In this document: one piece after another, positions 19,720 to 31,530 of the stretch
How the letters are laid out: every line of letters starts with the position of its first letter
How positions within the stretch are numbered: the stretch's first letter is position 1
Assembly: GCA_022565695.1 (NCBI GenBank)
Contig: JAIUME010000014.1
Span: forward strand, 1 to 58,105
Direction: 5' to 3'
Origin: Alcanivorax sp.
GTDB taxonomy: Bacteria; Pseudomonadota; Gammaproteobacteria; Pseudomonadales; Alcanivoracaceae
Length of the DNA: 58,105 nt
The notes under the pieces: model-generated
What the model was told of the DNA's origin: nothing
Seen by the model: the letters and a program-made list of their open reading frames with translations, nothing else
Database searches by the model: none
Made by a program: the position numbers and the translations under genes

Positions 19720-19959
19720 CAAGGGTCGCTGGTTAGAAAGACGCGCCCAGTATAGCGGATCACGGCGGCTTCGCCTGCGTTTGCGGGTTGTCTTCACCTC
19801 TGACGCGAGGCAGTATCGAAGCGGGCCTGAAACCACTGAATCCACAGCGTCTGGCCGATGGATTCCATGGGCCGCATTCCGCCACGAACAAGACGCCAGC
19901 CTCCAAAAGCTGGATAATGGCACCATTCTGCTACAAGTCCCCCACGCCCGGTGCTCCCC

Positions 19960-22152
19960 ATGGAAATCAAGGTCAACTATCTCGACAACCTCCGTCTGGA
20001 GGCAAAGTTTGACGACTTTACCGTCATCTCCGACCAGCCCATCCGCTACAAGGGAGATGGCTCCGCCCCCGGGCCGTTCGATTACTTCCTGGCATCCTCG
20101 GCCCTGTGTGCCGCCTATTTCGTCAAGGTGTACTGCAAGACCCGGGACATCCCTACCGAGAATATCCGCCTGTCGCAGAACAACATCATTGACCCGGAGA
20201 ACCGCTACAAGCAGATCTTCCGCATCCAGGTAGAACTGCCCGAGGATATCTCCGACAAGGACCGGCAGGGCATCCTGCGCGCCATCGACCGCTGCACCGT
20301 CAAGAAGGTGGTGCAGGCCAATCCCGAATTCCAGATCGAGACCGTCGAGAACATTGACGAAGATGCCCAGGCTCTGCTGATGGCCGTGCCCGATGAGGCC
20401 GGCAGCACCTGGATTGAAGGCAAGGACCTGCCGCTGGAGCAGACCATCGCCAACATGAGCGGCATTCTCGCCGGCCTGGGCATGAAGATCGAGATCGCCT
20501 CCTGGCGCAATATCGTGCCCCATGTGTGGTCCCTGCATATCCGCGATGCCGCCTCACCCATGTGCTTCACCAACGGCAAGGGCGCCACCAAGGAAAGCGC
20601 CCTGTGCTCTGCGCTGGGCGAATTTATCGAGCGGTTGAGCTGCAACTTCTTCTATAACGACCAGTTCTTCGGCGAAGAGATTGCCAACAGCGCCTTCGTG
20701 CACTATCCCAATGAAAAGTGGTTCCAGCCTGGCCCGGACGACGCCTTGCCCGATGGCATTCTGGATGAGCACTGCCGGGCGATCTACGACCCGGAAGGCG
20801 AACTACTTGGCTCGCACCTGATCGACACCAACTCCGGCAAGACGGCACGCGGCATCGTCGCGCTGCCGTTCGTGCGCCAGTCCGACGGCGAGACGGTGTA
20901 CTTCCCCTCCAACCTGATCGAGAACCTCTACCTGAGTAACGGCATGAGCGCCGGCAACACCCTGCAGGAAGCCCAGGTGCAGTGCCTCTCGGAAATCTTC
21001 GAGCGCGCCGTCAAGCGCGAGATCATCGAACAGGAAATCATACTGCCGGATGTGCCCGACACCGTGCTCGCCCAGTACCCGGCCATCGTCGAAGGCATCA
21101 AGGCATTGGAAGCACAGGGCTTCCCCGTGCTGGTGAAGGACGCCTCCCTGGGTGGCCAGTACCCGGTAATGTGCGTCACCCTGATGAACCCCCGCACTGG
21201 CGGTGTCTTTGCCTCCTTCGGCGCGCACCCCAGCTTTGAGGTGGCGCTGGAGCGCAGCCTTACCGAACTGCTGCAGGGCCGCAGTTTCGAGGGCCTGAAC
21301 GACCTGATGCCCCCGACCTTCAACAGCTTGGCCCTGACCGAGCCCAACAACTTCGTCGAGCACTTTATCGATTCCTCGGGGCTGATTTCCTGGCGTTTCT
21401 TCAGCAGCAAGGCGGATGTCGAGTTTGTGCATTGGGACTTCTCGAACGGCGCGGGCAGCAACGACGAAGAAGCTGCCACCCTGTTCGGCATCCTTCAGGG
21501 CATGGAGCTGGAAGCCTATATGGCCGTGCACGAAGACCTGGGCGCCCCCGTATGCCGCATCCTGGTGCCCGGCTACTCCGAGGTGTACCCCGTGGAAGAC
21601 CTGGTGTGGGACAACACCAACAAGGCCCTGCTGTTCCGCGAAGACATCCTCAACCTGCATGCCTTGAGCGACAAACAACTGACCGCCCTGCTCGAACGCC
21701 TGGAAGAAACCCAGATCGACGAGCACATGGACATCATCACCCTGATCGGCATCGAGTTCGACGAGAACACCGTGTGGGGCCAGCTGACCATCCTCGAACT
21801 GAAGTTGCTGATCCACCTGGCCCTGGGGGCGCATGAAGACGCCCTTGAGTATGTGGAAATGTTCCTGCAGTACAACGACAACACCGTGGAACGCGGCCGC
21901 TTTTATCAGGCCATGCAGGCTGTGCTCACCATCCTGCTGGATGATGAGCTGGAACTGGATGATTACCTCTATAACCTGACCCGCATGTTCGGCCAGACCA
22001 CCATGGATGCCGTGGTGGGCTCCACCCAGGGCACGGTGCGCTTCCACGGCCTCACGCCCACCAATATGCAACTTGATGGCCTGGAGAAACACCAGCGCCT
22101 GATCGAGAGCTACAAAAAGCTGCATGCGCATCGCGCTGCCCGGGCAGGCTAG
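19960..22152 (+). CDS. OsmC-YcaO fusion protein
   Basis: This 730-residue protein joins an N-terminal OsmC-like domain (about residues 1-140, with PGPFDYFLASSALCAAYFVK and a Cys) to a YcaO domain (about 165-560) and a helical, TPR-like C-terminal extension (about 570-725). YcaO ATP-binding features are visible in GKGATKESALCSALGEFIER and in the QCLSEIFERAVKREIIE helix. YcaO proteins activate amide backbones with ATP. E. coli YcaO contributes to beta-methylthiolation of ribosomal protein S12. Fused OsmC forms are widespread in marine gammaproteobacteria. The start at 19960 matches the MEIKVNYLDN strand. A strong GC hairpin follows the stop. Confidence 0.9.
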   Translation: MEIKVNYLDNLRLEAKFDDFTVISDQPIRYKGDGSAPGPFDYFLASSALCAAYFVKVYCKTRDIPTENIRLSQNNIIDPENRYKQIFRIQVELPEDISDKDRQGILRAIDRCTVKKVVQANPEFQIETVENIDEDAQALLMAVPDEAGSTWIEGKDLPLEQTIANMSGILAGLGMKIEIASWRNIVPHVWSLHIRDAASPMCFTNGKGATKESALCSALGEFIERLSCNFFYNDQFFGEEIANSAFVHYPNEKWFQPGPDDALPDGILDEHCRAIYDPEGELLGSHLIDTNSGKTARGIVALPFVRQSDGETVYFPSNLIENLYLSNGMSAGNTLQEAQVQCLSEIFERAVKREIIEQEIILPDVPDTVLAQYPAIVEGIKALEAQGFPVLVKDASLGGQYPVMCVTLMNPRTGGVFASFGAHPSFEVALERSLTELLQGRSFEGLNDLMPPTFNSLALTEPNNFVEHFIDSSGLISWRFFSSKADVEFVHWDFSNGAGSNDEEAATLFGILQGMELEAYMAVHEDLGAPVCRILVPGYSEVYPVEDLVWDNTNKALLFREDILNLHALSDKQLTALLERLEETQIDEHMDIITLIGIEFDENTVWGQLTILELKLLIHLALGAHEDALEYVEMFLQYNDNTVERGRFYQAMQAVLTILLDDELELDDYLYNLTRMFGQTTMDAVVGSTQGTVRFHGLTPTNMQLDGLEKHQRLIESYKKLHAHRAARAG

Positions 22153-22960: not shown

Positions 22961-23332
22961 ATGTGCAAAACTCAATTCACGGCCAAAGACGGAACCATCG
23001 CAAACATCGTGATCGACCAAGATGGTACAGTCATATCGGTGTGGATCGGAGGTGCGGAAACAGGAAGCATTGAGCTGACGATGGGCGATGGTCCCTATCA
23101 CTTCCATATAACACACATGTTCCTCAACAAATGCAAAGGTAAGGGAATTGGGCGCGCTTGTTTGAGGTTTCATAAGGAATGTTTTGCAGCACCACTGACT
23201 GCGTCGTCGCCGTTCGAACCAGGACAGAAGTTGGACGGCAGTCATTTGACAGGGGACGGGCTGCCATCTATCTCGAAAATGCGAGACGAGGGCATAGTGT
23301 GTCGCCACTCAGACGAGTATGACCAGGGCTAA
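22961..23332 (+). CDS. cassette 2: hypothetical protein, weakly GNAT-like
   Basis: This 123-residue protein has a beta-rich N-terminal half followed by CKGKGIGRACLRFHKECF (about residues 61-78). That segment resembles the acetyl-CoA loop and helix of GNAT acetyltransferases (R/Q-x-x-G-x-G/A). The resemblance is weak and the rest does not confirm it. The ATG at 22961 is the first clear start after attC 1. A second ATG at 22946 is out of frame. The stop lies in the R'' box of attC 2. Confidence 0.55.
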   Translation: MCKTQFTAKDGTIANIVIDQDGTVISVWIGGAETGSIELTMGDGPYHFHITHMFLNKCKGKGIGRACLRFHKECFAAPLTASSPFEPGQKLDGSHLTGDGLPSISKMRDEGIVCRHSDEYDQG

Positions 23333-23385
23333 CAAGGTCATCCAGCCGACGCTCGTACCTCGCGCGGCTGATGACGGCGTTATGA
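23327..23385 (+). other. attC site 2
   Basis: R'' GGCTAAC (23327-23333) and R' GTTATGA (23379-23385). The arms GTCATCCAGCCG and CGGCTGATGAC pair around GCTCGTACCTCGC. Cassette 2 begins GTTAGCC, the exact complement of this R''. Confidence 0.9.
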
Positions 23386-23408
23386 GCCAATCAACATCGA
23401 GAGTATGA

Positions 23409-23852
23409 ATGGACGATAGAGTCAAAAAATTAGATACGCCAGAAAAGTGCGCGATATTTGCCAAGAACTGTATTGAGCGCGGTCGAGAGGATTTGGCTCA
23501 AGAGGCAAAAGAGCGTGCTCTACAGCTCCGAGCAGAAGCGCACGGCGCAGAGACGGAAGCAGAACGTGAAGCTCTTGAAGCTGTATATGCCTACGAAGAG
23601 GTCTTGAGCACAAGAAATGGAAAGAGAACACGCGCTGGACGTACTTGGCAAATGATTGAGCGTCATGGAATTATCGGCGCGGTGGAGCGTGCGGTAAACC
23701 GCCCAACGGAAACGCAGGGATATACCTCACTTGTTGAAATGGGCCTCGAAGACTATGCCTTTGAAAATGTAATCCTTCGTTATCCCAATCTATTCAGCGA
23801 GCAAGCAGTAAATATTTCCAAGGCGCGCATCGATCAGTGGCGTAGCTCATAA
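23409..23852 (+). CDS. cassette 3: hypothetical protein of integron cassettes
   Basis: This soluble, mostly helical protein has 147 residues. The first 70 residues are highly charged (KNCIERGREDLAQEAKERAL) and look like helical repeats. A middle segment NGKRTRAGRTWQMIERHGII resembles a basic helix-turn-helix-like surface. The C-terminal part (ENVILRYPNLFSEQAVNIS) is conserved-looking. I recall similar sequences in environmental integron cassettes but no function. The start ATG 23409 follows GAGAGT. The stop overlaps the R'' box of attC 3. Confidence 0.7.
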   Translation: MDDRVKKLDTPEKCAIFAKNCIERGREDLAQEAKERALQLRAEAHGAETEAEREALEAVYAYEEVLSTRNGKRTRAGRTWQMIERHGIIGAVERAVNRPTETQGYTSLVEMGLEDYAFENVILRYPNLFSEQAVNISKARIDQWRSS

Positions 23853-23930
23853 CAAGGCCAGGCACGGCGACGGCTTTTTCGTTGCGGCTTCGCCTACACT
23901 ACAAAGCCGCGCGTGCTGGCGGCGTTAGGT
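23847..23930 (+). other. attC site 3
   Basis: R'' TCATAAC (23847-23853) and R' GTTAGGT (23924-23930), 84 bases. The inverted arms include GCCAGGCACG with CGTGCTGGC, and CGGCTTT with AAAGCCG. Cassette 3 begins GTTATGA, the exact complement of this R''. Confidence 0.9.
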
Positions 23931-23950
23931 CTACATTCAAGGCGGCCTGA

Positions 23951-24301
23951 ATGAGTGAGACGAAAAAGCGGGAAATCTTCTTCGAGCAGCTTAAAGAGGC
24001 CCGCGACGGCTACTTCGTCGAGTACAACCCGCCGGGTGGAGAAGTAAGGTTTGCGTGGCTCACGCTTGTTTTTCACGAAGGCGCGACGCCTGACTTCGCA
24101 AAGGCGGCTATGGAACATGAGGCCGCATTATGGACGCTGCGATATCCAGTGCCGGTTATGGTTTTCGCGTGCGACGAAAAAGGCGATACGGTAGAGATCA
24201 GCGAGGATTGGGGTCGGAACAACCTGATTGCCTGGCGGTGTTCTGATGGCAGTCTAGATATGTACTGGGAGTATCTCAAAGACGAGGTCATACAGATGTA
24301 G
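23951..24301 (+). CDS. cassette 4, gene 1: hypothetical protein
   Basis: This 116-residue acidic soluble protein is Trp- and Tyr-rich. Conserved-looking segments are REIFFEQLKEARDGYFVEYN, PVMVFACDEKGD and DMYWEYLKDEV. I do not recognise a family. It starts 20 bases after the R' box of attC 3 and is followed 20 bases later by a membrane protein in the same cassette. The pair could act together, but no motif shows how. Confidence 0.65.
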   Translation: MSETKKREIFFEQLKEARDGYFVEYNPPGGEVRFAWLTLVFHEGATPDFAKAAMEHEAALWTLRYPVPVMVFACDEKGDTVEISEDWGRNNLIAWRCSDGSLDMYWEYLKDEVIQM

Positions 24302-24321
24302 CGCTTTCGGCCGAGTATCTC

Positions 24322-24735
24322 TTGAAGACCTATGAGGGAGTGCCCTACAGGACTGCGGAGGAAGTAAGGCAACAAGCCGGCACCAATTGGAAGAGCCGTT
24401 CTAAGGAGCTTCGTATCGGTTTTGCAATTATCTTCTGCTGGGCAGTAGCAGTCCCGGCAGCCATTGCGTTGCTGGGATGGACAAGCCCGTTGGTTGGCTT
24501 CATGGTCATGGTCTACGCATTGGGCACGGCCGTCCGTCAAGCAGGCCTGATGCTTGGCAGGTTCAAGCCTTTGCCACATGAGAGTGAAACGCGGCAGAAG
24601 GAGCAACTAATGCGTCATTACTATTATCACTGTGAGCGAAATCCAGATGCATTCAGGCGGCTTGTCGTTGAAAATTTTGAGCAGGATCAGCGAGAAGCCG
24701 AGGAGCTAACAAGCGCATCGAGCGGACGCGGCTAA
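24322..24735 (+). CDS. cassette 4, gene 2: hypothetical two-helix membrane protein
   Basis: This 137-residue protein has two adjacent membrane helices (about residues 34-52 and 57-75) between a basic N-terminal segment and a charged cytoplasmic C-terminal helix. The frame has no ATG before the helices, so translation likely starts with TTG at 24322. The stop lies well inside attC 4, so the last ten residues or so (SASSGRG) are encoded by the recombination site and would change if the cassette moved. Confidence 0.5.
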   Translation: MKTYEGVPYRTAEEVRQQAGTNWKSRSKELRIGFAIIFCWAVAVPAAIALLGWTSPLVGFMVMVYALGTAVRQAGLMLGRFKPLPHESETRQKEQLMRHYYYHCERNPDAFRRLVVENFEQDQREAEELTSASSGRG

Positions 24736-24764
24736 AGCCGCGCCGCTCATGCTTGGCGTTAGCA
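24704..24764 (+). other. attC site 4
   Basis: R'' AGCTAAC (24704-24710) and R' GTTAGCA (24758-24764). Arms AAGCGCATCGAGCGG and CCGCTCATGCTT pair around CGCGGCTAAAGCCGCG, itself a stem-loop. Cassette 4 begins GTTAGGT, one mismatch from the complement of this R'', the only imperfect match in the array. Confidence 0.9.
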
Positions 24765-24805
24765 TTTTTAGACTTAAACCTATGGGTAATCTTAAAGGTC
24801 AACAT

Positions 24806-25777
24806 ATGAGCAATAAAGAAAGTTTTGGAAGTGTGAGCCTAGTTCGTCAGGGAGAGCATAGGTTTTACTCATTCACTATGCCCAGTGATATCCTTGCGGA
24901 AACGTGTTACGTGATCAACCGCGATGAAGATCCCATAGAAGGATTTCAGCGAGAGCTGGATAAAAAAAGAGCGATGGAAATTGCAAATTATATTGATTCA
25001 GGACTTGGGACTATTCCTAGCTCAATAGTTTTATCAGCGCAGGAAGATTGCGATTTTACATACGATTCAAAAACAAAATCAGTGAGCTTTAAAAACATAA
25101 ATAAGGCATTCCTTATCATTGATGGGCAGCATCGAGTGTATGGATTCAAGCTCGCGAACACGGCACTAAGAATTCCTGTTGTAGTATACGAGAACTTGTC
25201 AAAAAGAGATGAAACAAGGCTGTTTATTGATATAAATTCTAAGCAAAAGGGGGTGCGAACAGAACTTCTTCTAGATATCAAGAAGATGGCTGAGTATGAG
25301 AATGATGCTGAGCAATACCTAAGAGAGATATTCGATACATTCTTAACAGAGAATGACAGCGCTCTCTACAATAGGCTTTCAGCTTCGAAAAGAGAAAAGG
25401 GAAAGATCACTAGATCTGTTTTCAATACGGCGATTAAGCCTTTGGTTAAAGTTTTTGGAAACAAGACGCCAACGGAAATATATGAGATATACAACGCATA
25501 CCTAATTGCTTTCAATGAAGGGATATTGGTCCCCCATGGCATTCAAGACCAGGCTTTCAACACGACTGTATTCAAGGCCATTGCCGGATTCTTCCCTATT
25601 ATAACCGCAAGAGTTAAAGATCGGTTTGGTGCCATTTATACAGTTGATAACTACCATGAATTTACAGAGATTATTGGTCAGAGAATCAAGCCTATAAAGC
25701 TAGAAAATCCGACTAATGCATATAAGCCTATTGTTGATCATCTTGAAGAGTCATTAAAGCAGGAGTTTACTCTTTAA
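24806..25777 (+). CDS. cassette 5, gene 1: DGQHR-domain (DndB-like) protein
   Basis: This 323-residue protein carries the hallmark IIDGQHRVYGF (about residues 104-114) and the second conserved segment RLFIDINSKQKGV (about 142-154), both diagnostic of DGQHR/DndB-type proteins, which are ParB-fold relatives. DndB regulates and takes part in DNA phosphorothioation modification. No dndACDE genes are present here, so a full Dnd system is not encoded. An N-terminal strand region (FGSVSLVRQGEHRFYSF) also fits. I chose ATG 24806, which follows AAAGG by 7 bases; ATG 24782 is in frame. The stop is directly followed by the ATG of the HEPN-like gene. The base composition is much more A+T-rich than the core genome. 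Confidence 0.8.
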   Translation: MSNKESFGSVSLVRQGEHRFYSFTMPSDILAETCYVINRDEDPIEGFQRELDKKRAMEIANYIDSGLGTIPSSIVLSAQEDCDFTYDSKTKSVSFKNINKAFLIIDGQHRVYGFKLANTALRIPVVVYENLSKRDETRLFIDINSKQKGVRTELLLDIKKMAEYENDAEQYLREIFDTFLTENDSALYNRLSASKREKGKITRSVFNTAIKPLVKVFGNKTPTEIYEIYNAYLIAFNEGILVPHGIQDQAFNTTVFKAIAGFFPIITARVKDRFGAIYTVDNYHEFTEIIGQRIKPIKLENPTNAYKPIVDHLEESLKQEFTL

Positions 25778-26743
25778 ATGACGCCTGAGATTAAGCTTAT
25801 TCACCAGTTATCACATAACGCAATATTCGAAGTATCTTCGAAAAATGAGACTGACCTAAAAGCTTGGGTTGCGAATGGTCAGTATCTGATGGATCAGGCG
25901 TTAGTGCCAAATCCACAAGGAAGGGCTAGCGAATTCAAACTCCGATTTCAAGACGCTGACAAACTAAATATTGCCTTAGCGAATGATTGTAACCGTTTTT
26001 CACAAGCCGCGATTGAGTCTATGTGGTGCATTGGAAAGGTGGAAAAGTTACCAAGAAGCACTGCCTGGGCTACTGTTCAAATGTATTATTCTGCATTTTT
26101 CGCCGTGCATGCGTTATTGAGAATTTTTGGCAGAGCTTGCACGCAATTGGATAGCAGCCATGTTGAGGCAGTATATCAAGTGGCAAGCGCTACCAATATG
26201 GATGGCAGTTCATCCTGCATTGAAAATGGGTTTTACATCTCGGTGATAGATAATAACGGTATTGAATACAAAAAATTAAAAGATTCACATGCAGATACTT
26301 GGCTGTCGTTCTCGAATTTGTTGACTTGGATAATTAATAACATTGAGAGCACTACAGGCTTGGGGAAACACAAGTCCGATGCTATCGATCTTGTTTCAAA
26401 ACTCAAACAGGCGATGTCACAGTCCGGAGCAGCTAAAGGTAATTGGCCTTCGCAAGTAAGGAATAGGGTTAACTATCAACACAGTCATGGTGTTTGGTAT
26501 CCGTACAAAAATGCATTGCATGATCACGAGGCTATACTAAGAAACTCAGAATGGTTAAAGCAACCACAGACCTTTGATCTAAATCCAAATACCGGAGAAA
26601 TTCAATCACTATTCAACATTAGTAATTCGATACTATCGCTGATGTACCAGCTAATGAAGTACGGCTATGACCGTGCAGGTAAAATTTCGCTGCCATTAGC
26701 GAATGGAACATTTCGACTTATAAATCAAATCCGAGCAGCATGA
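25778..26743 (+). CDS. cassette 5, gene 2: HEPN-like protein
   Basis: This 321-residue protein has a helix ATVQMYYSAFFAVHALLRIF (about residues 98-117), typical of the first core helix of HEPN domains. Near residues 228-235 it has RNRVNYQH, which contains the R-x4-6-H signature of HEPN ribonucleases. Many HEPN proteins are toxins or defence effectors. The domain call is by eye and the fold outside these parts is unknown. The ATG abuts the stop of the DGQHR gene with no gap, so both are made from one message by coupled translation. A regulator/sensor plus effector module is a reasonable inference. Confidence 0.65.
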   Translation: MTPEIKLIHQLSHNAIFEVSSKNETDLKAWVANGQYLMDQALVPNPQGRASEFKLRFQDADKLNIALANDCNRFSQAAIESMWCIGKVEKLPRSTAWATVQMYYSAFFAVHALLRIFGRACTQLDSSHVEAVYQVASATNMDGSSSCIENGFYISVIDNNGIEYKKLKDSHADTWLSFSNLLTWIINNIESTTGLGKHKSDAIDLVSKLKQAMSQSGAAKGNWPSQVRNRVNYQHSHGVWYPYKNALHDHEAILRNSEWLKQPQTFDLNPNTGEIQSLFNISNSILSLMYQLMKYGYDRAGKISLPLANGTFRLINQIRAA

Positions 26744-26791
26744 TGCTAACAAAGCAATGCACGCGACAAGCGCGTGATAGCGGCGTTAGCG
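26744..26791 (+). other. attC site 5
   Basis: R'' TGCTAAC (26744-26750) and R' GTTAGCG (26785-26791), only 48 bases, the shortest in the array. Arms GCACGCG and CGCGTGATAGC pair around ACAAG. Cassette 5 begins GTTAGCA, the exact complement of this R''. Confidence 0.85.
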
Positions 26792-26807
26792 ATCAAGGAA
26801 GAGTTTG

Positions 26808-27278
26808 ATGCAAGTTTCGTGTTTTATCCTTGAGGAGTCAGCTAAAACCATAATCGGACTGGCTACTACCGGCCTTTCCGGGGGGCTAATATGGCTTGCG
26901 CTTCTCCGCTATCGGAGCCATACGATCCGAGTTCTCTTAAAGAATTCAACTAGAGTGTTTATCTTCTACTATCGGGGAGATCACGATACATCCCACAAGA
27001 AGCGCTTAGCTTTCAATGCCGATGGCTCGATCAACGACGGAAAGCACCCTAACGAGTGCTACTGGGATGTCGCCTGGGGACTGCTAGTGATCTACACAAA
27101 CGGTAGGAAGGTATATAGCAAGTTCAGGTGGGATCAGAAAGTTGGAAGACTCATCCATACAAATAATCCAAACCTCCCGTCCGTGATGGGCCAGTGTATA
27201 GTGCCCCTGTTCATTCCTGCTGGACAGAATCGAGAGATATACTTGCAGAGCCTAGGAGTTGATGGCAATGGACGCTAA
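26808..27278 (+). CDS. cassette 6: hypothetical single-pass membrane protein
   Basis: This 156-residue protein has one N-terminal membrane helix (about residues 14-34, TIIGLATTGLSGGLIWLALL). A soluble beta-rich domain follows (VFIFYYRGDHDTSHKKRLAF, ECYWDVAWGLLVIYTNG). The pattern suggests a membrane-anchored sensor or effector domain, but I recognise no family. The ATG at 26808 follows AGGAAGAG. The stop TAA overlaps the R'' box of attC 6. Confidence 0.6.
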   Translation: MQVSCFILEESAKTIIGLATTGLSGGLIWLALLRYRSHTIRVLLKNSTRVFIFYYRGDHDTSHKKRLAFNADGSINDGKHPNECYWDVAWGLLVIYTNGRKVYSKFRWDQKVGRLIHTNNPNLPSVMGQCIVPLFIPAGQNREIYLQSLGVDGNGR

Positions 27279-27377
27279 CAATCAGCTGCACCGGACAAAT
27301 TTCCGCTGTCATCTTTTGTGCATAGAGCCGCACAAATGCCGCCATCAAAAATTTACCCGGTGGGCCGGGCGTTATAT
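27273..27377 (+). other. attC site 6
   Basis: R'' CGCTAAC (27273-27279) and R' GTTATAT (27371-27377), 105 bases, the longest in the array. Outer arms include CACCGG with CCGGTG and a long AT-rich central hairpin around TTTGTGCATAGAGCCGCACAAA. Cassette 6 begins GTTAGCG, the exact complement of this R''. Confidence 0.85.
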
Positions 27378-27395
27378 GCAAAGAGAGTTCATCTC

Positions 27396-28061
27396 ATGAA
27401 TCAAGACAAGTACAGCTCTAAGTTTGAAACAAATGACAAAGAGTCAAAATTGCTGAAAGCTGCTTTTGACCAAGTTTCAGACATACGAAAATTTGAGGTT
27501 GAGCTTTACTGGAAAAGAGCAACTTATTTTTGGGCATTAATAGCGGTAGCTTTTGCTGGTTACTTCTCGATTCTGGCTTCTGAACATATGCCCAGTAAGT
27601 TTTTTCTGTCACTTATAGTTTCTTGTATTGGTTTTGTATTTACCTTTGCTTGGTTTCTTTCAAGTAGGGGGAGCAAGTACTGGCAGGAGAACTGGGAGAA
27701 TCACCTTGACCTCCTAGAAGACAATGTAACTGGTCCCTTATACAAAACCTTACTCGAACGGCCTGGCCACATAAATCTGGCGGAAAAACTTATAACTGGT
27801 CCTTTGAGTGTATCCGTTTCTAAAATAAACCAGTGGGTTGGTATTTTCATCGTTTTTGCGTGGTGTTTGTTGGTCGGGTTCTCTGCTTATAACTCTTTAG
27901 ATCCGCTTGGGTTATCAAAGGATCAATGGCTAAATATTGGACTGCATGCGTTTGTTATAGCCATCACCTTGGTGGCCTGCTTTATGATGTTTGGTTTCGG
28001 AAAGACACACAAAGACAAGCATTCACCCAAAGTTGTAGAGCGAGAAACGAGAATTAAGTAA
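27396..28061 (+). CDS. cassette 7: four-helix membrane protein
   Basis: This 221-residue protein has four predicted membrane helices, in two pairs (about residues 45-63 and 70-90; 148-168 and 185-205). A charged cytoplasmic N-terminus carries DIRKFEVELYWKRATYFWA at the first membrane entry, and a basic tail follows the last helix. The segment between the pairs holds KYWQENWENHLDLLED and may be a helical soluble domain. Membrane proteins of this layout occur in defence and integron contexts, but I cannot name a family. The true start is ATG 27396; the frame extends upstream into attC 6. An AAAGAGAG site precedes the start. Confidence 0.7.
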   Translation: MNQDKYSSKFETNDKESKLLKAAFDQVSDIRKFEVELYWKRATYFWALIAVAFAGYFSILASEHMPSKFFLSLIVSCIGFVFTFAWFLSSRGSKYWQENWENHLDLLEDNVTGPLYKTLLERPGHINLAEKLITGPLSVSVSKINQWVGIFIVFAWCLLVGFSAYNSLDPLGLSKDQWLNIGLHAFVIAITLVACFMMFGFGKTHKDKHSPKVVERETRIK

Positions 28062-28063
28062 GC

Positions 28064-28124
28064 ATATAACAATCGCGTCAATTAGGACGCTCGCAAGCTC
28101 TCGCCTATTACGCGGGCGTTAATC
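28064..28124 (+). other. attC site 7
   Basis: R'' ATATAAC (28064-28070) and R' GTTAATC (28118-28124), 61 bases. Arms CGCGT with ACGCG and AATTAGGACGC with GCGGG-type partners form an imperfect hairpin. Cassette 7 begins GTTATAT, the exact complement of this R''; the match extends to GTTATATGC with GCATATAAC. Confidence 0.9.
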
Positions 28125-28144
28125 GTTTCAAAGGTGGAGGATGT

Positions 28145-28441
28145 ATGCGAGATTTTGGCTCAATGAAACAGTCTTATGAGGCAATGGGTTACGACGAGAG
28201 GCTGGCCTTTCTTTCTGGGTTAAAAGTTATCCTGGAAGCAGAAATGCAAAAGATTGGTCAGAATTATGATGAAACGGATTCTAGGGACGTCCGTATTAGG
28301 TTATTGAAAAAGACTTCAGAGCTACAAGAGGCCATACATGCCGTAAAGGACAGTTCGAAGGAGTCTAGCAAAGAGCCTGCGGTGGTAGATGATGGTTTCT
28401 GGGGAACTCTGGAACAGTATCTTATCTCCGGAGTCGATTAA
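28145..28441 (+). CDS. cassette 8: small helical hypothetical protein
   Basis: This 98-residue soluble protein is mostly helical, with heptad-like spacing in residues 20-75 (LAFLSGLKVILEAEMQKIGQ; RIRLLKKTSELQEAIHAVKD). It has a flexible Ser/Lys-rich linker and an aromatic C-terminal segment (FWGTLEQYLISGV). The family is unknown. A GGTGGAGG ribosome site lies just before the ATG. Its stop overlaps the R'' box of attC 8. Confidence 0.6.
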   Translation: MRDFGSMKQSYEAMGYDERLAFLSGLKVILEAEMQKIGQNYDETDSRDVRIRLLKKTSELQEAIHAVKDSSKESSKEPAVVDDGFWGTLEQYLISGVD

Positions 28442-28489
28442 CAAGGCAAGGCAGCGGGCGCCTTCGGCCCTCTGCTCGCGACGTTATGC
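28436..28489 (+). other. attC site 8
   Basis: R'' GATTAAC (28436-28442) and R' GTTATGC (28483-28489), 54 bases. Arms AGGCAGCGGGC and GCCCTCTGCT-type sequence pair around GCCTTCGGC. Cassette 8 begins GTTAATC, the exact complement of this R''. Confidence 0.88.
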
Positions 28490-28522
28490 GCGCAGCCATC
28501 TGCGTCAACCAAAGAGAAAAAA

Positions 28523-28834
28523 ATGACAGAACCTAACGAAACAGAAATTAAAGTCAGTGACGCTACCAACGAAAGCAATGATTTTTCATACGATGATTAT
28601 TTTCATTCGAAAGAAGCTTTTTTGATTTTCGTACTATTGTATGTTGATGGTGAAAAAAGAGCCGACTTCCTTGGTATTAAAGAAGAAATGTATGAGTCAA
28701 GAGCCAAGGCAAAAGAATGGCGAAATTCTTTGGTTAAAGTACTTCATTCTGACCGTTGCAAGCACCTATCTGCGGATGAGGCCACAGCGAAAGTCAACGA
28801 AATCTATTCAAGGATGAAAAAGCATGCCGAATGA
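28523..28834 (+). CDS. cassette 9, gene 1: small J-domain-like protein
   Basis: This 103-residue acidic protein has a C-terminal half with WRNSLVKVLHSDRCKH (about residues 66-81), then DEATAKVNEIYSRMKKH. This mirrors the layout of J domains (helix II, HPD, helix III with a K-x-N-E-x-Y core), with HSD in place of HPD. The resemblance is my inference and DnaK stimulation is not implied. It overlaps the following HNH-nuclease-like gene by 11 bases, so the two proteins are probably made together and may bind each other. Confidence 0.65.
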   Translation: MTEPNETEIKVSDATNESNDFSYDDYFHSKEAFLIFVLLYVDGEKRADFLGIKEEMYESRAKAKEWRNSLVKVLHSDRCKHLSADEATAKVNEIYSRMKKHAE

Positions 28835-29525
28835 GGAAGAGAAGAAGAATAGCACTAGCAAGCTTCCTGTAACTTTAAAACCGGTTGACTTTGAATACAA
28901 AAAACCAGAAAGAAGAAACGAATTAACTGAGCCAAAAAAATACGACAAGATCGATTCGAAAATTGGTGAACTAGTAAAGCTCGGCACTAATGGCGTAATT
29001 TACGTAGATGAAGATACTTTTTCTACAATATTTCAAACCACTTGGCCGAAAGCTGCTTTTATATTTGAAAACCAGATTCCAGATGCAGACAAGAAAAGTT
29101 TTGATGGTAAAAATTACGCTCATAGCTCGGCAGTGGTTGGGTTGACCGAAAAGAAATCACAAGAATTCAGAGATGCCGAAAAGCAAGCCTTGCTTCAATA
29201 TGCTCGGGACTCGCTCATTAGTGTATCAGACTCACCTGAGGCGCAGGATATGAGAAGAAAGGTTGATTCATTCACATCCAAAATCCTTCCAAAACTCCGC
29301 GACGAACGAGGCGTAAATACTGATGAAGTAACTGGTGAAGATAGAAGAAGAGGTTTTGCATTTCATCATGTTAATCCAAAGGAATTGCATACAGACCCAG
29401 AGGACGTATTAGATCCTACTAAGGGGCGGAATTTGAATCCTGAAACTCATGCGGACGTACACAGAAATAACATCAACAATGAGGAGCAGTTTGAGAAGTA
29501 TCAGACTGAAAATAAGCCGAAGTAA
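28824..29525 (+). CDS. cassette 9, gene 2: HNH-type nuclease-like protein
   Basis: This 233-residue protein has a charged, Lys-rich N-terminus and a C-terminal HNH-like region. FAFHHVNPKELHTDP (His 181 and 182) is followed by GRNLNPETHADVHR (Asn 203, His 209, His 213). The spacing is that of HNH/endonuclease VII-like toxins of polymorphic and defence systems, where paired His, Asn and His bind metal. No secretion signal is seen. It starts inside the preceding J-like gene, with GAGGAAGAG-type purines just after its own ATG and GGATG upstream. Confidence 0.68.
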   Translation: MPNEEEKKNSTSKLPVTLKPVDFEYKKPERRNELTEPKKYDKIDSKIGELVKLGTNGVIYVDEDTFSTIFQTTWPKAAFIFENQIPDADKKSFDGKNYAHSSAVVGLTEKKSQEFRDAEKQALLQYARDSLISVSDSPEAQDMRRKVDSFTSKILPKLRDERGVNTDEVTGEDRRRGFAFHHVNPKELHTDPEDVLDPTKGRNLNPETHADVHRNNINNEEQFEKYQTENKPK

Positions 29526-29528
29526 AGC

Positions 29529-29598
29529 GCATAACAATTTGCTGCACGCGGAAAAATACTCGCTGCGCTCGCATTTTCCGGTGAGCAAGGCGTTATAC
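29529..29598 (+). other. attC site 9
   Basis: R'' GCATAAC (29529-29535) and R' GTTATAC (29592-29598), 70 bases. Arms TTTGCT and AGCAAG, and CGGAAAA with TTTTCCG, pair around a central CTCGCTGCGCTCG. Cassette 9 begins GTTATGC, the exact complement of this R''. Confidence 0.9.
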
Positions 29599-29610
29599 GC
29601 AAGGAAGGTC

Positions 29611-29895
29611 ATGAGCATCATTCGATAAATTGCAGAGTCATGGGGTTGGGTAGATATCGATCCCATCCAGGTGGTCGGAGTGGGGGAAGTCCACTCCCCG
29701 TGGGTGACCCTTTTCATGCCAGCTCTTGTGTTGATTGTGGGGCTTGCATGGCCGCGCAAAAGGCGCCGCGATGCCTGGTCGATCTCGCTGGGTGCGGGCT
29801 TTCTGGTTCTGAGCTTCGTGCCCATCCTTGTGTCGGGGTATCTGCCGACATGGAATATTGGGGCCTGGATATTACCCCTGACAAGGTGTCGCATT
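29611..29895 (+). pseudogene. truncated cassette 10: broken Tdi1/DUF1851-like gene plus membrane-protein fragment
   Basis: After attC 9 the frame from ATG 29611 reads MSIIR, stop, then IAESWGWVDIDPIQVVG. This resembles the N-terminus of DUF1851/Tdi1-type immunity proteins, which usually continue with a GENxFGN motif. Here the similarity ends after VVG (about 29679). The same frame then carries an unrelated hydrophobic stretch (VTLFMPALVLIVGLAW and AGFLVLSFVPILVSGYLPTW) that runs into the next gene. So both a nonsense codon and a deletion junction mark this as a decayed cassette. No closing attC (it would read GTATAAC) follows. The Tdi1 call is from memory of the family. Confidence 0.5.
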
Positions 29896-30459
29896 ATGGG
29901 ACTCTTGACCTTTAGCATCAACGTCACCCTGGACGGCTGCGTCGATCATCAGGAAGGAATCGCCGACGACGAGACACATGCTTTCTTCACCGGACTGATG
30001 GACGAGAGCGGGGCGATGTTGTGGGGCCGTATCACCTACGAGATGATGGAGAGCTACTGGCCGGCGGTAGCCAGTGGCGAGGAGGAGGCGACGCCAGCGA
30101 TGCGCGAGTGGGCGGTTAAACTGGAAGCAAAGCCGAAGTACGTCGTATCGTCGACGCGAAAGAACTTCCCATGGACCAACAGCCACCACATTGCTGGCGA
30201 TCTGGGCGCGGGCGTGCAGAGGCTGAAAGACGCCACCCCGGCGGGCATACTCCTCGGTAGCGGCAAGCTCGCGACCGAACTGGACAGGCTGGATCTGATC
30301 GACGAGTACAAATTCCTCGTCCATCCCAGGGTCGCCGGCCACGGCCCGACGCTGTACCAGAGTGGGCTGCCCGGCGCGCGGCGGCTCGAGCTTGTTTCGG
30401 CGCAGCCGCTCCGCTGCGGCGCGGTCGCCATGCACTATCGGCGCGCGCGTGACGGGTAG
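29896..30459 (+). CDS. dihydrofolate reductase-like (RibD C-terminal) protein
   Basis: This 187-residue protein of the DHFR/RibD_C superfamily starts MGLLTFSINVTLDGCVDH and has AMLWGRITYEMMESYW, ILLGSGKLATELDRLDLIDE and the strand FLVHPRVAGHGPTL. Such single-domain proteins bind NADPH; most have no known substrate. The ATG at 29896 fits the conserved first strand; the frame extends upstream into a hydrophobic fragment that is unrelated. It is the first intact gene right of the truncated cassette array. A different-subtype relative lies at 35433. Confidence 0.85.
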   Translation: MGLLTFSINVTLDGCVDHQEGIADDETHAFFTGLMDESGAMLWGRITYEMMESYWPAVASGEEEATPAMREWAVKLEAKPKYVVSSTRKNFPWTNSHHIAGDLGAGVQRLKDATPAGILLGSGKLATELDRLDLIDEYKFLVHPRVAGHGPTLYQSGLPGARRLELVSAQPLRCGAVAMHYRRARDG

Positions 30460-30497
30460 CCCGTGGCTATCGCTTCAAATTTACACAGGAGGTAAAG

Positions 30498-31070
30498 GTG
30501 AGCGAAAAAGGATACCTGAAGCCACCGGAAGAGATTGACATGGCACAGGCCGAGAGATCGATTCGCGTGGCGGGTCTCATCAGTGTGTTGGCGCTGGCGG
30601 GCGCTGTTCCGGCCGCCTATTTTATGTTGCCTGCATTATTTTCCTTTCCTGAAGAACTGCCGGAACGGCTTGCCTTCGCGGCTCAAGCGAGCATATTCGT
30701 GCTGCTTTGCGCGGTTGTCGCCATAGGAATGGTTTCGACTGCCCGCAGGTTTTCACCAGAAGATATTGGGGGCTCTGCCGCTCGGGCGCCTAGTAAGCGT
30801 ATCGCCATTTATGTGGCATTCCTTCAAAATACCTTGGAGCAGTCAGTAATAGCCGTAGGCCTTTACTTTGCCTTGGCGGTGCTTCTGAGCGGCCCATGGC
30901 TTTCCCTCATAGTGGTCGGCGTAATCTTCTTCTTGATTGGGCGGGTGCTCTTTTTTCGGGGCTATTCCAGAGGTGTCGAAGGTAGAGCTCTGGGTATGAC
31001 ATTGACTATGATGCCTACGGCATTTGGCTACCTGTTGGTACTGGTGCTTATGGGTGCCAAATGGATTTGA
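30498..31070 (+). CDS. MAPEG-family membrane protein
   Basis: This 190-residue protein has four membrane helices (about residues 25-48, 62-84, 108-148 as a pair, and 162-186). The segment RVLFFRGYSRGVEGRALGMT followed by a final helix matches the MAPEG family of membrane glutathione/eicosanoid enzymes. In bacteria the function is usually unknown. It starts with GTG 30498 after an AGGAGGTAA ribosome site. It lies in a cluster of small accessory genes on the same strand. Confidence 0.78.
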   Translation: MSEKGYLKPPEEIDMAQAERSIRVAGLISVLALAGAVPAAYFMLPALFSFPEELPERLAFAAQASIFVLLCAVVAIGMVSTARRFSPEDIGGSAARAPSKRIAIYVAFLQNTLEQSVIAVGLYFALAVLLSGPWLSLIVVGVIFFLIGRVLFFRGYSRGVEGRALGMTLTMMPTAFGYLLVLVLMGAKWI

Positions 31071-31134
31071 CGGATTTCTTCACCTGCCTTATGGATGAGC
31101 GAGGGGCGCTGGCCGATTCTTCTGAGAGACATCC

Positions 31135-31530
31135 ATGAACTGGAACGAAAGCACGATCAACCCGAAAGTCATTCTCGGATACTACGATAGTGCGCCGAGC
31201 CTTGAGCATGTCGATGTCCATCGCATCTCGTTGATGCGCGACGGGCCAATGGCCGAGATCACGTTTGACGTAGGCAGCTTTCCGGAAAGGCCATCTCGAA
31301 AATGGCCGCCTGGTGCCAATACCTGTCAGATCACAGTTCGTGCTTTCGGCTTGGTCGAGGCGGAATTAACGCGCTGGAGCAATCAGTCGTCTGGCACGTT
31401 GAATGTTGGAGTTGTGCAGGGCGGCATAGAGGTTGCCTTCAGCGGTGAGGCAAAATTCAGGCTGCTGTGTTCGCACCTGGATGTGGCTGGTGTGACCGGC
31501 TATGTCAACGATATCTCAGGTACAGGATGA
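31135..31530 (+). CDS. Imm50-like protein
   Basis: This 131-residue soluble protein has the layout of Imm50 family immunity proteins: an N-terminal VILGYYDSAPSLEHVDVHRI, then alternating strands (GPMAEITFDVGSFPE, LNVGVVQGGIEVAFSGEA) and a C-terminal FRLLCSHLDVAGVTGYVND. Imm50 proteins are predicted antidotes in polymorphic toxin loci, but no toxin is adjacent. Its stop codon overlaps the ATG of an AraC-type regulator by four bases, an unusual partner for an immunity gene. Confidence 0.6.
   Translation: MNWNESTINPKVILGYYDSAPSLEHVDVHRISLMRDGPMAEITFDVGSFPERPSRKWPPGANTCQITVRAFGLVEAELTRWSNQSSGTLNVGVVQGGIEVAFSGEAKFRLLCSHLDVAGVTGYVNDISGTG

Follow-up and report, generated by a model that had tools for sequence, protein, structure and literature searches.

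The locus considered here raises the question of whether two adjoining genes of an Alcanivorax contig, one for a protein with a DGQHR domain and one for a protein with HEPN-like motifs, form a single functional unit, and if so what that unit may do. The window, by which we mean the whole stretch of 58,105 nucleotides that was analysed, carries the pair at 24806-26743, and we refer to the two proteins as P1 and P2. Their features and those of the flanking DNA are as follows.

24705-24763, + strand: attC-like site (GCTAAC ... GTTAGC), 5' flank of the cassette, passed by the scan.
24806-25777, + strand: gene for P1, a DGQHR-domain (ParB/Srx-like) protein of 323 aa, start assigned by comparison with relatives.
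25121-25135, + strand: DGQHR motif of P1 (D106-R110), unchanged in 27 aligned rows.
25778-26743, + strand: gene for P2, 321 aa, a candidate effector with HEPN-like motifs and with no Pfam or NCBIfam family.
26084-26131, + strand: P2 motif YYSAFFAVHALLRIFG (Y103-G118), with Y103 in 38/38 relatives, Y104 in 37/38 and G118 in 37/38.
26288-26302, + strand: P2 H171-x3-W175, candidate alternative active-site His, both residues in 38/38.
26459-26476, + strand: P2 R228-N-x-x-N-Y233 (Rx4Y, not Rx4H), R228 and Y233 in 38/38, H235 in 15/38.
26745-26790, + strand: attC-like site, 3' flank, recognised by eye and not passed by the scan.

The translation of 24806-25777 has both IIDGQHR and FIDINSKQKG, the TAA stop codon of P1 directly precedes the ATG of P2 (25777/25778), and P2 carries YYSAFFAVHALLR and RNRVNYQH (R228-H235), all as read in a preliminary description of this DNA. 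The automatic start of P1, at 24749, falls within the attC site, and the relatives in L004 and L006 (related loci are given as L numbers) start at the position to which 24806 corresponds.

The pair thus lies in an integron cassette with attC-like sites on both sides, one found by scan and one by eye. A first attC scan found nothing in the window and a second passed one site, that at 24705-24763, which scored 13.0 against a score line of 10 and was the sole window position above it; the control was one shuffled window, with a top score of 5.5. The downstream attC-like site starts one base past the P2 stop codon, and its first 30 bases are identical to those in Oceanimonas smirnovii (L002). The 42 bases that separate the upstream attC from P1 show no sigma-70-like site, and the cassette may therefore be silent in the window.

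Pairing, inheritance and settings

So that P1 was not presupposed, relatives were sought with P2 first. These searches gave 17 relatives besides the window, from two plasmid records, six genome contigs, two viral-collection contigs and, for the remaining seven, from genome samples: four from the order (293 genomes), two further from the phylum (398) and one from the class (369). Plasmid hits of the Providencia P2 (19 records, 15 from Providencia and 4 from Burkholderia) are excluded from this count, because that P2 had itself been found via P1. Two of the relatives, L003 and L033, have no upstream DNA and are outside the comparison; L033 is probably the L006 locus, as the downstream sequence is identical. 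For the 15 with upstream DNA, a DGQHR gene is directly upstream of P2 in 14. The sole exception is L011 (3959-4888, L131; a Tritonibacter plasmid), where IS21-like genes, recognised by eye, are directly upstream of P2, and where any DGQHR match in the 14.5 kb examined is at E 0.042 or worse. A further P2-first scan of the viral collection gave 12 contigs, all of them paired (12/12) and none new.

The viral collection was also searched from the DGQHR side, and 39 contigs were found: 23 that are close and complete, one that is cut by the end of its contig (L043) and 15 that are distant (L059-L073), a close gene being one with a profile E below 1e-45. P2 is next to the DGQHR gene in 21 of the 23 close contigs, a number that includes near copies, and in none of the 15 distant ones. 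Of the others in the close group, L041 has a DGQHR gene with only a short frame resembling the start of P2, and L053 has no P2. In the order sample (293 genomes) eight DGQHR places pass E 1e-15, of which five, including the window, are close and followed by P2, one (L030) has a P2-like gene of just 182 aa, and two are without. In the class sample (369) nine places pass E 1e-10: two close ones, again including the window, come with P2, two more encode large one-chain proteins and five are distant. In the pairs P1 comes first and P2 second, frequently with 4-base overlaps or a spacing of a few bases.

The genes of the pair are inherited together. Distances among P1 proteins correlate with those among P2 proteins with a Mantel r of 0.906 for 38 pairs (0 of 2000 permutations) and 0.868 for the 23 non-redundant pairs (0 of 5000 permutations), which shows that the two are co-inherited but does not show that they are in contact. 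A tree built from 65 DGQHR regions places 36 of the 38 P2-linked rows, together with L041 and L053, in one group with support of 81/74, and leaves the P2-linked rows L057 and L075 outside it; its inner groups are well supported, support for the main group is modest, and there is a warning of long branches. L030 counts in this tree as a row without P2 despite its short P2-like gene.

The coupling of the two genes suggested in the preliminary description is thus borne out, with homologues repeatedly found together (14/15, 21/23 and 12/12) and distances correlated at r 0.868. Chance pairing was considered and is ruled out by the P2-first adjacency, the pairing in the order sample and the distance correlation.

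The closest relatives come from Oceanimonas smirnovii (P2 97%) and a Halomonas MAG (92%, on a contig that ends before P1). In a sample of seven genomes of the genus the only copy is that of the window, so the module is scattered and not inherited with the genus.

It had also been proposed that the cassette is mobile, and the pair is indeed found in integron, plasmid and prophage settings. Flanks of cassette type were recognised by eye in four loci (L002, L003, L005, L023), were less clear in L004 and were not seen in L006. In 12 of the 23 close viral-collection contigs the pair is followed, in the opposite direction, by a portal gene of the gpQ type of phage P2, and in 10 of these 12 it is preceded by a replication gene of the gpA type (weak in L048, at 31%). 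These assignments have PHROG backing for the portal in 2/2 loci tested (L042 and L050) and for the replication protein in 5/5 (L042, L049, L050, L052 and L056), the remainder being by protein similarity to the PHROG-backed loci; L046 and L049, and also L047 and L048, look like near copies. The other 11 of the 23 contigs, like the 15 distant ones, showed neither a gpA nor a gpQ relative. P2-like prophages have been described as having a hotspot for anti-phage systems in the interval between gpA and gpQ (PMC9122126).

In Pseudomonas phage PfAC19 the pair adjoins the repressor. The accessory genes that flank the Pf core are reported to be mostly related to anti-phage defence, and the entry for PfAC19 in the same source reads 'TA; PfsE' and does not itself name the genes meant (PMC11878078). 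In an Acinetobacter plasmid (L008) the pair is behind an N6/N4 DNA methyltransferase and a NotI-family nuclease, and in an Acinetobacter phage a distant pair is behind cI and a methyltransferase. In two Providencia plasmid records the pair is flanked on one side by a short umuC-like frame or by umuD and on the other by an annotated umuC; in one of these plasmids (L009, 4161-8277) the flanking genes are the short umuC-like frame, seen by eye, and the annotated umuC. Several genomic copies have neighbours that look ordinary by eye. With two probes the pair was not found in 5,426 complete E. coli genomes, so that screens centred on E. coli could miss it.

Some separate observations were made at the related loci. 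In L020 (3500-4456, genome G251) a gene beside the pair on the opposite strand has SHVRNAFYGHGLI, which by eye is an R-x4-6-H of the canonical HEPN type. Downstream in L031 there is another DGQHR-like frame, and L094 has a TGT-family gene.

The two proteins

P1 scores 157.6 bits against the NCBIfam DGQHR model (TIGR03187, cut-off 58.85) and 60.5 against Pfam DndB (cut-off 29.1), passing both. D106-R110, F140 and N144 are invariant across 27 aligned rows and Q48-R49 is present in at least 90% of them, so P1 has the QR, DGQHR and FxxxN motifs of DGQHR domain proteins. Such proteins have been related to GmrS/DUF262, with which they share the motifs QR, DGQ(H/Q)R and FxxxN, and are predicted to have a ParB/sulfiredoxin fold (PMC4619093). 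Among the profile matches of P1 in the PDB the best, with E 0.034, was to a protein designed de novo.

With regard to DndB and DpdB, P1 shares with them the DGQHR domain family and differs in being far under both equivalog cut-offs (28.9 of 328 bits for DndB and 58.1 of 300 bits for DpdB) and in having P2 as its steady partner. A profile search for DndC, as the dnd gene sought, found no match in the window genome, and DpdA gave only a match below cut-off (30.7 bits against 200) that is perhaps the housekeeping Tgt. The statements in the preliminary description that phosphorothioation genes are lacking and that this is not a normal Dnd system both hold, the first with DndC as its scope. P1 as a stray DndB or DpdB was rejected, given the missed equivalog cut-offs, no DndC and no DpdA over the cut-off.

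The role of P1 can be approached by analogy. In SspE the Arg of DGQQR is required for GTP hydrolysis, and hydrolysis upon meeting phosphorothioate DNA licenses the nuclease (PMC13251355); this DGQQR domain, a relative of DGQHR and the GTPase switch of SspE, is also found in GmrS (PMC4619093). P1, with its invariant R110, is likely to be an NTP-dependent sensor or regulator, and by the same analogy would be the sensor-switch to which P2 is the effector. The likeness to SspE and GmrSD is in the NTPase signature motif and in the theme of a mark-sensing NTPase that gates a nuclease (PMC13251355, PMC4619093). In contrast to the pair, with its DGQHR and separate P2, these systems combine DGQQR with HNH, either within a single chain or divided between GmrS and GmrD; the HNH family has no match in P1 or P2, and the pair does not belong with GmrSD/SspE.

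Neither Pfam nor NCBIfam has a family that matches P2, and searching the PDB with its sequence gave no match of note. Among the 38 aligned relatives Y103, H171, W175, R228 and Y233 are invariant, W97, Y104 and G118 are each altered once, and N232 is N in 33. In the preliminary description R230 and H235 were taken as the active pair of a HEPN RNase with an Rx4H site. That pair has to be abandoned, since position 230 is R in only 4/38 (the window, L002, L034 and L058) and position 235 is H in 15/38, against 38/38 for the neighbouring R228 and Y233. A conserved Rx4-6H is absent from P2, the residue at the Rx4 position being Tyr in all 38.

The part of the HEPN proposal that survives is the pattern of a variant motif. 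AbiV and HEPN-T proteins of the AF0298 type are described as typically without the His of Rx4-6H, the basic residue being kept, and as having a strongly conserved upstream His that may substitute (PMC3710099). The residue pattern of P2 resembles this variant HEPN: it keeps the motif Arg (R228, 38/38), loses the motif His and has a conserved upstream His (H171, 38/38). The stretch from YY to G has equal ungapped length and the same key positions in P2 and in four HEPN-T rows, and the His and then R-x3-[DN]-Y come in the same order in both. P2 differs from HEPN-T proteins in being more than twice as long and in having a steady DGQHR partner. On this pattern it is plausible that P2 is an RNase with an active site other than that first proposed, and we describe it as HEPN-like and do not call it HEPN.

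The best surviving alternative is that P2 is not a HEPN protein, being instead an unrelated helical effector or a DNA-binding partner in which YY and RN-NY have arisen by chance, and this would be compatible with defence and toxin-antitoxin functions alike. In its favour, none of the HEPN models of Pfam matches any of 25 P2 members at E up to 1, in a scan in which 12 families were matched overall. Profile comparison of P2 with the four HEPN-T rows argues against it, with P 8e-4, a probability of 25% and a score of 28.9 that exceeds all 200 column shuffles (maximum 19.1) and the reversed form (17.9), although the four rows were selected for the YY motif and the P-value therefore flatters. The P2 subgroup most like the window gave P 1.5e-4 and a probability of 51% with the same rows, and two other subgroups gave P 0.02 and 0.04. 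Against a wider set of 26 HEPN rows (24 of the 30 loci L099-L128, with L076 and L129; row L104 looks misread) P2 gave P 0.06 and a score of 17.2, which falls short of the top score among 60 column shuffles (20.2). The HEPN profile similarity thus depends on the reference set and is suggestive at best. The equal YY-to-G length and the preserved order of the His and R-x3-[DN]-Y also weigh against coincidence, and we take a P2 unrelated to HEPN to be a serious possibility, if somewhat short of an even one.

The reading of P1 as sensor and P2 as HEPN-like effector draws some support from relatives that have DGQHR and Rx4H in one chain. Single proteins in L092 (796-3135), L093 (808-3156) and L130 (3788-6097) have a central DGQHR and a C-terminal R-x4-H, examples of the latter being RNNWAH and RQYTAH. 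The N-terminus has a nuclease-like stretch, for which L092 has only sub-cut-off matches to Hjc and NERD. The C-terminus of L092 is matched by no HEPN model and that of L130 has a weak match, at E 1.7e-4, to the phage-defence candidate family PDC-M34B, so the case for HEPN in the one-chain proteins is that of the motif. L093 has a D12 methyltransferase gene upstream, where L092 has, as judged by eye, a comparable short frame. In the tree the DGQHR parts of the one-chain proteins share a supported group with two divergent P2-linked rows, with long branches flagged.

The L130 protein is from Novosphingobium pNL1 and, from its tag, may be Saro_3948, which has been named as a HEPN-ParB fusion in a paper that also has MAE_28990, a HEPN protein in an operon with ParB and a DNA methylase (PMC3710099). 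The HEPN-ParB proteins of Anantharaman et al. 2013 are like the pair in coupling ParB-like to HEPN parts (PMC3710099); the pair differs in being two genes, and in that P2 has neither a conserved Rx4-6H nor a match to any HEPN model. Coupling a ParB-fold sensor to a nuclease is already a known theme and ParB-HEPN fusions are published, and the pair is a variant of this theme. We recognised no description of the pair itself in the open-licence PMC literature that was searched.

Possible functions of the pair

A role in defence or conflict is likely, given the spread of the pair over mobile contexts and above all its presence in the gpA-gpQ hotspot. The reading that we prefer, and consider about evenly poised between right and wrong, is that of a two-gene module that defends the cell, prophage or plasmid, in which P1 senses and P2 is a HEPN-like RNase effector. 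P1, as a ParB/sulfiredoxin-like protein and putative NTPase, would sense an invader-linked DNA or nucleotide cue and would hold or release P2. P2 would be the effector, most likely a variant HEPN-like RNase in which H171 with R228 and Y233 replaces Rx4-6H. The logic would be that of SspE, 'recognise, hydrolyse, activate', divided between two proteins.

A more specific form of this defence reading, which we put forward as a speculation more apt to fail than to hold, is a split machine in which a DGQHR NTPase that reads a DNA mark or structure gates a non-canonical HEPN RNase (H171, R228, Y233). If so, a class of sensor that gates DNA nucleases would here gate an effector that cuts RNA and stops growth, and would be carried as cargo of prophages and plasmids and as an integron cassette.

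Alternatively the pair could be a toxin-antitoxin pair like those of type II, retaining its carrier (array, plasmid or prophage), with P2 as toxin, P1 as antitoxin or autoregulator, and defence as a secondary effect. The gene order, with 4-base overlaps or short spacing, and the mobile contexts would suit this, as would the finding of P1 with a short piece of P2 in L041 and of P2 without P1 once. However, P1 and P2 are each over 300 aa, which is large for toxin-antitoxin pairs, the window cassette shows no promoter of its own, and the gpA-gpQ position in 12/23 contigs suggests anti-phage cargo beyond addiction alone. The report of DndB as an ATP-dependent negative regulator (PMC10853773) is consistent with such a role for P1, and 'TA; PfsE' is given for phage PfAC19, in an entry where the genes are not specified (PMC11878078). 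Taken together these points leave a toxin-antitoxin pair rather unlikely.

The weakest alternative, a restriction-modification accessory in which P1 reads methylation or another mark and is itself the nuclease, with P2 structural or regulatory and no RNase, has for it a methyltransferase directly or one gene upstream in L008 (with the NotI-family nuclease) and L075, the D12 methyltransferase that adjoins the fusion gene in L093, a C5 methylase that in L034 lies downstream by two genes and on the opposite strand, and the mention of ParB/Srx proteins with DNA-nicking activity (PMC12839542). Few methyltransferases, however, were noticed among the genes around 36 loci, which are not a census, as the family scan covered a small part of these genes, and we judge this alternative improbable.

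If the pair is protective, as in the defence reading that we prefer, it would be a compact two-gene system for which P2 has no model in PADLOC (2023). The PADLOC matches of P2 are weak and scattered: 25 rows matched four families, each by a single row, the best at E 0.0016 (a CARF family), and the window protein matched DpdK at 0.02. A protective pair would also give a function of their own to orphan DGQHR proteins, which are easily mistaken for Dnd or Dpd leftovers, and it would raise the question of whether ParB-fold NTPases switch RNases as well as DNA nucleases.

The apparent cassette cluster in the window

The region 23328-29605 has eight attC-like sites, one found by scan and seven by eye, and between them are small genes on the + strand, their function mostly not known. 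No integron integrase above the cut-off was found in the genome (22 contigs, 99.9% complete), and weaker integrase matches occur alike in the window genome and in 14/14 control genomes. The region looks like an integrase-less cassette cluster.

Two of the other cassette genes can be described further. That at 27318-28061 has a Pfam match, at E 6e-39, to 8xMP, a family of octameric membrane proteins. That at 28824-29525 has no Pfam match, and by eye its C-terminal region (FHHVNPKELHTDPEDVLDPTKGRNLNPETHADVH) resembles HNH. At 29671-31530 there is a RibD_C-type gene, where a 37-base stretch (29982-30018) is repeated at 31075-31111 with 81% identity, the second copy being immediately ahead of a gene for an Imm50 immunity protein. 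At 19951-22152 an OsmC domain is fused to a YcaO protein that includes the YcaO C-terminal domain.
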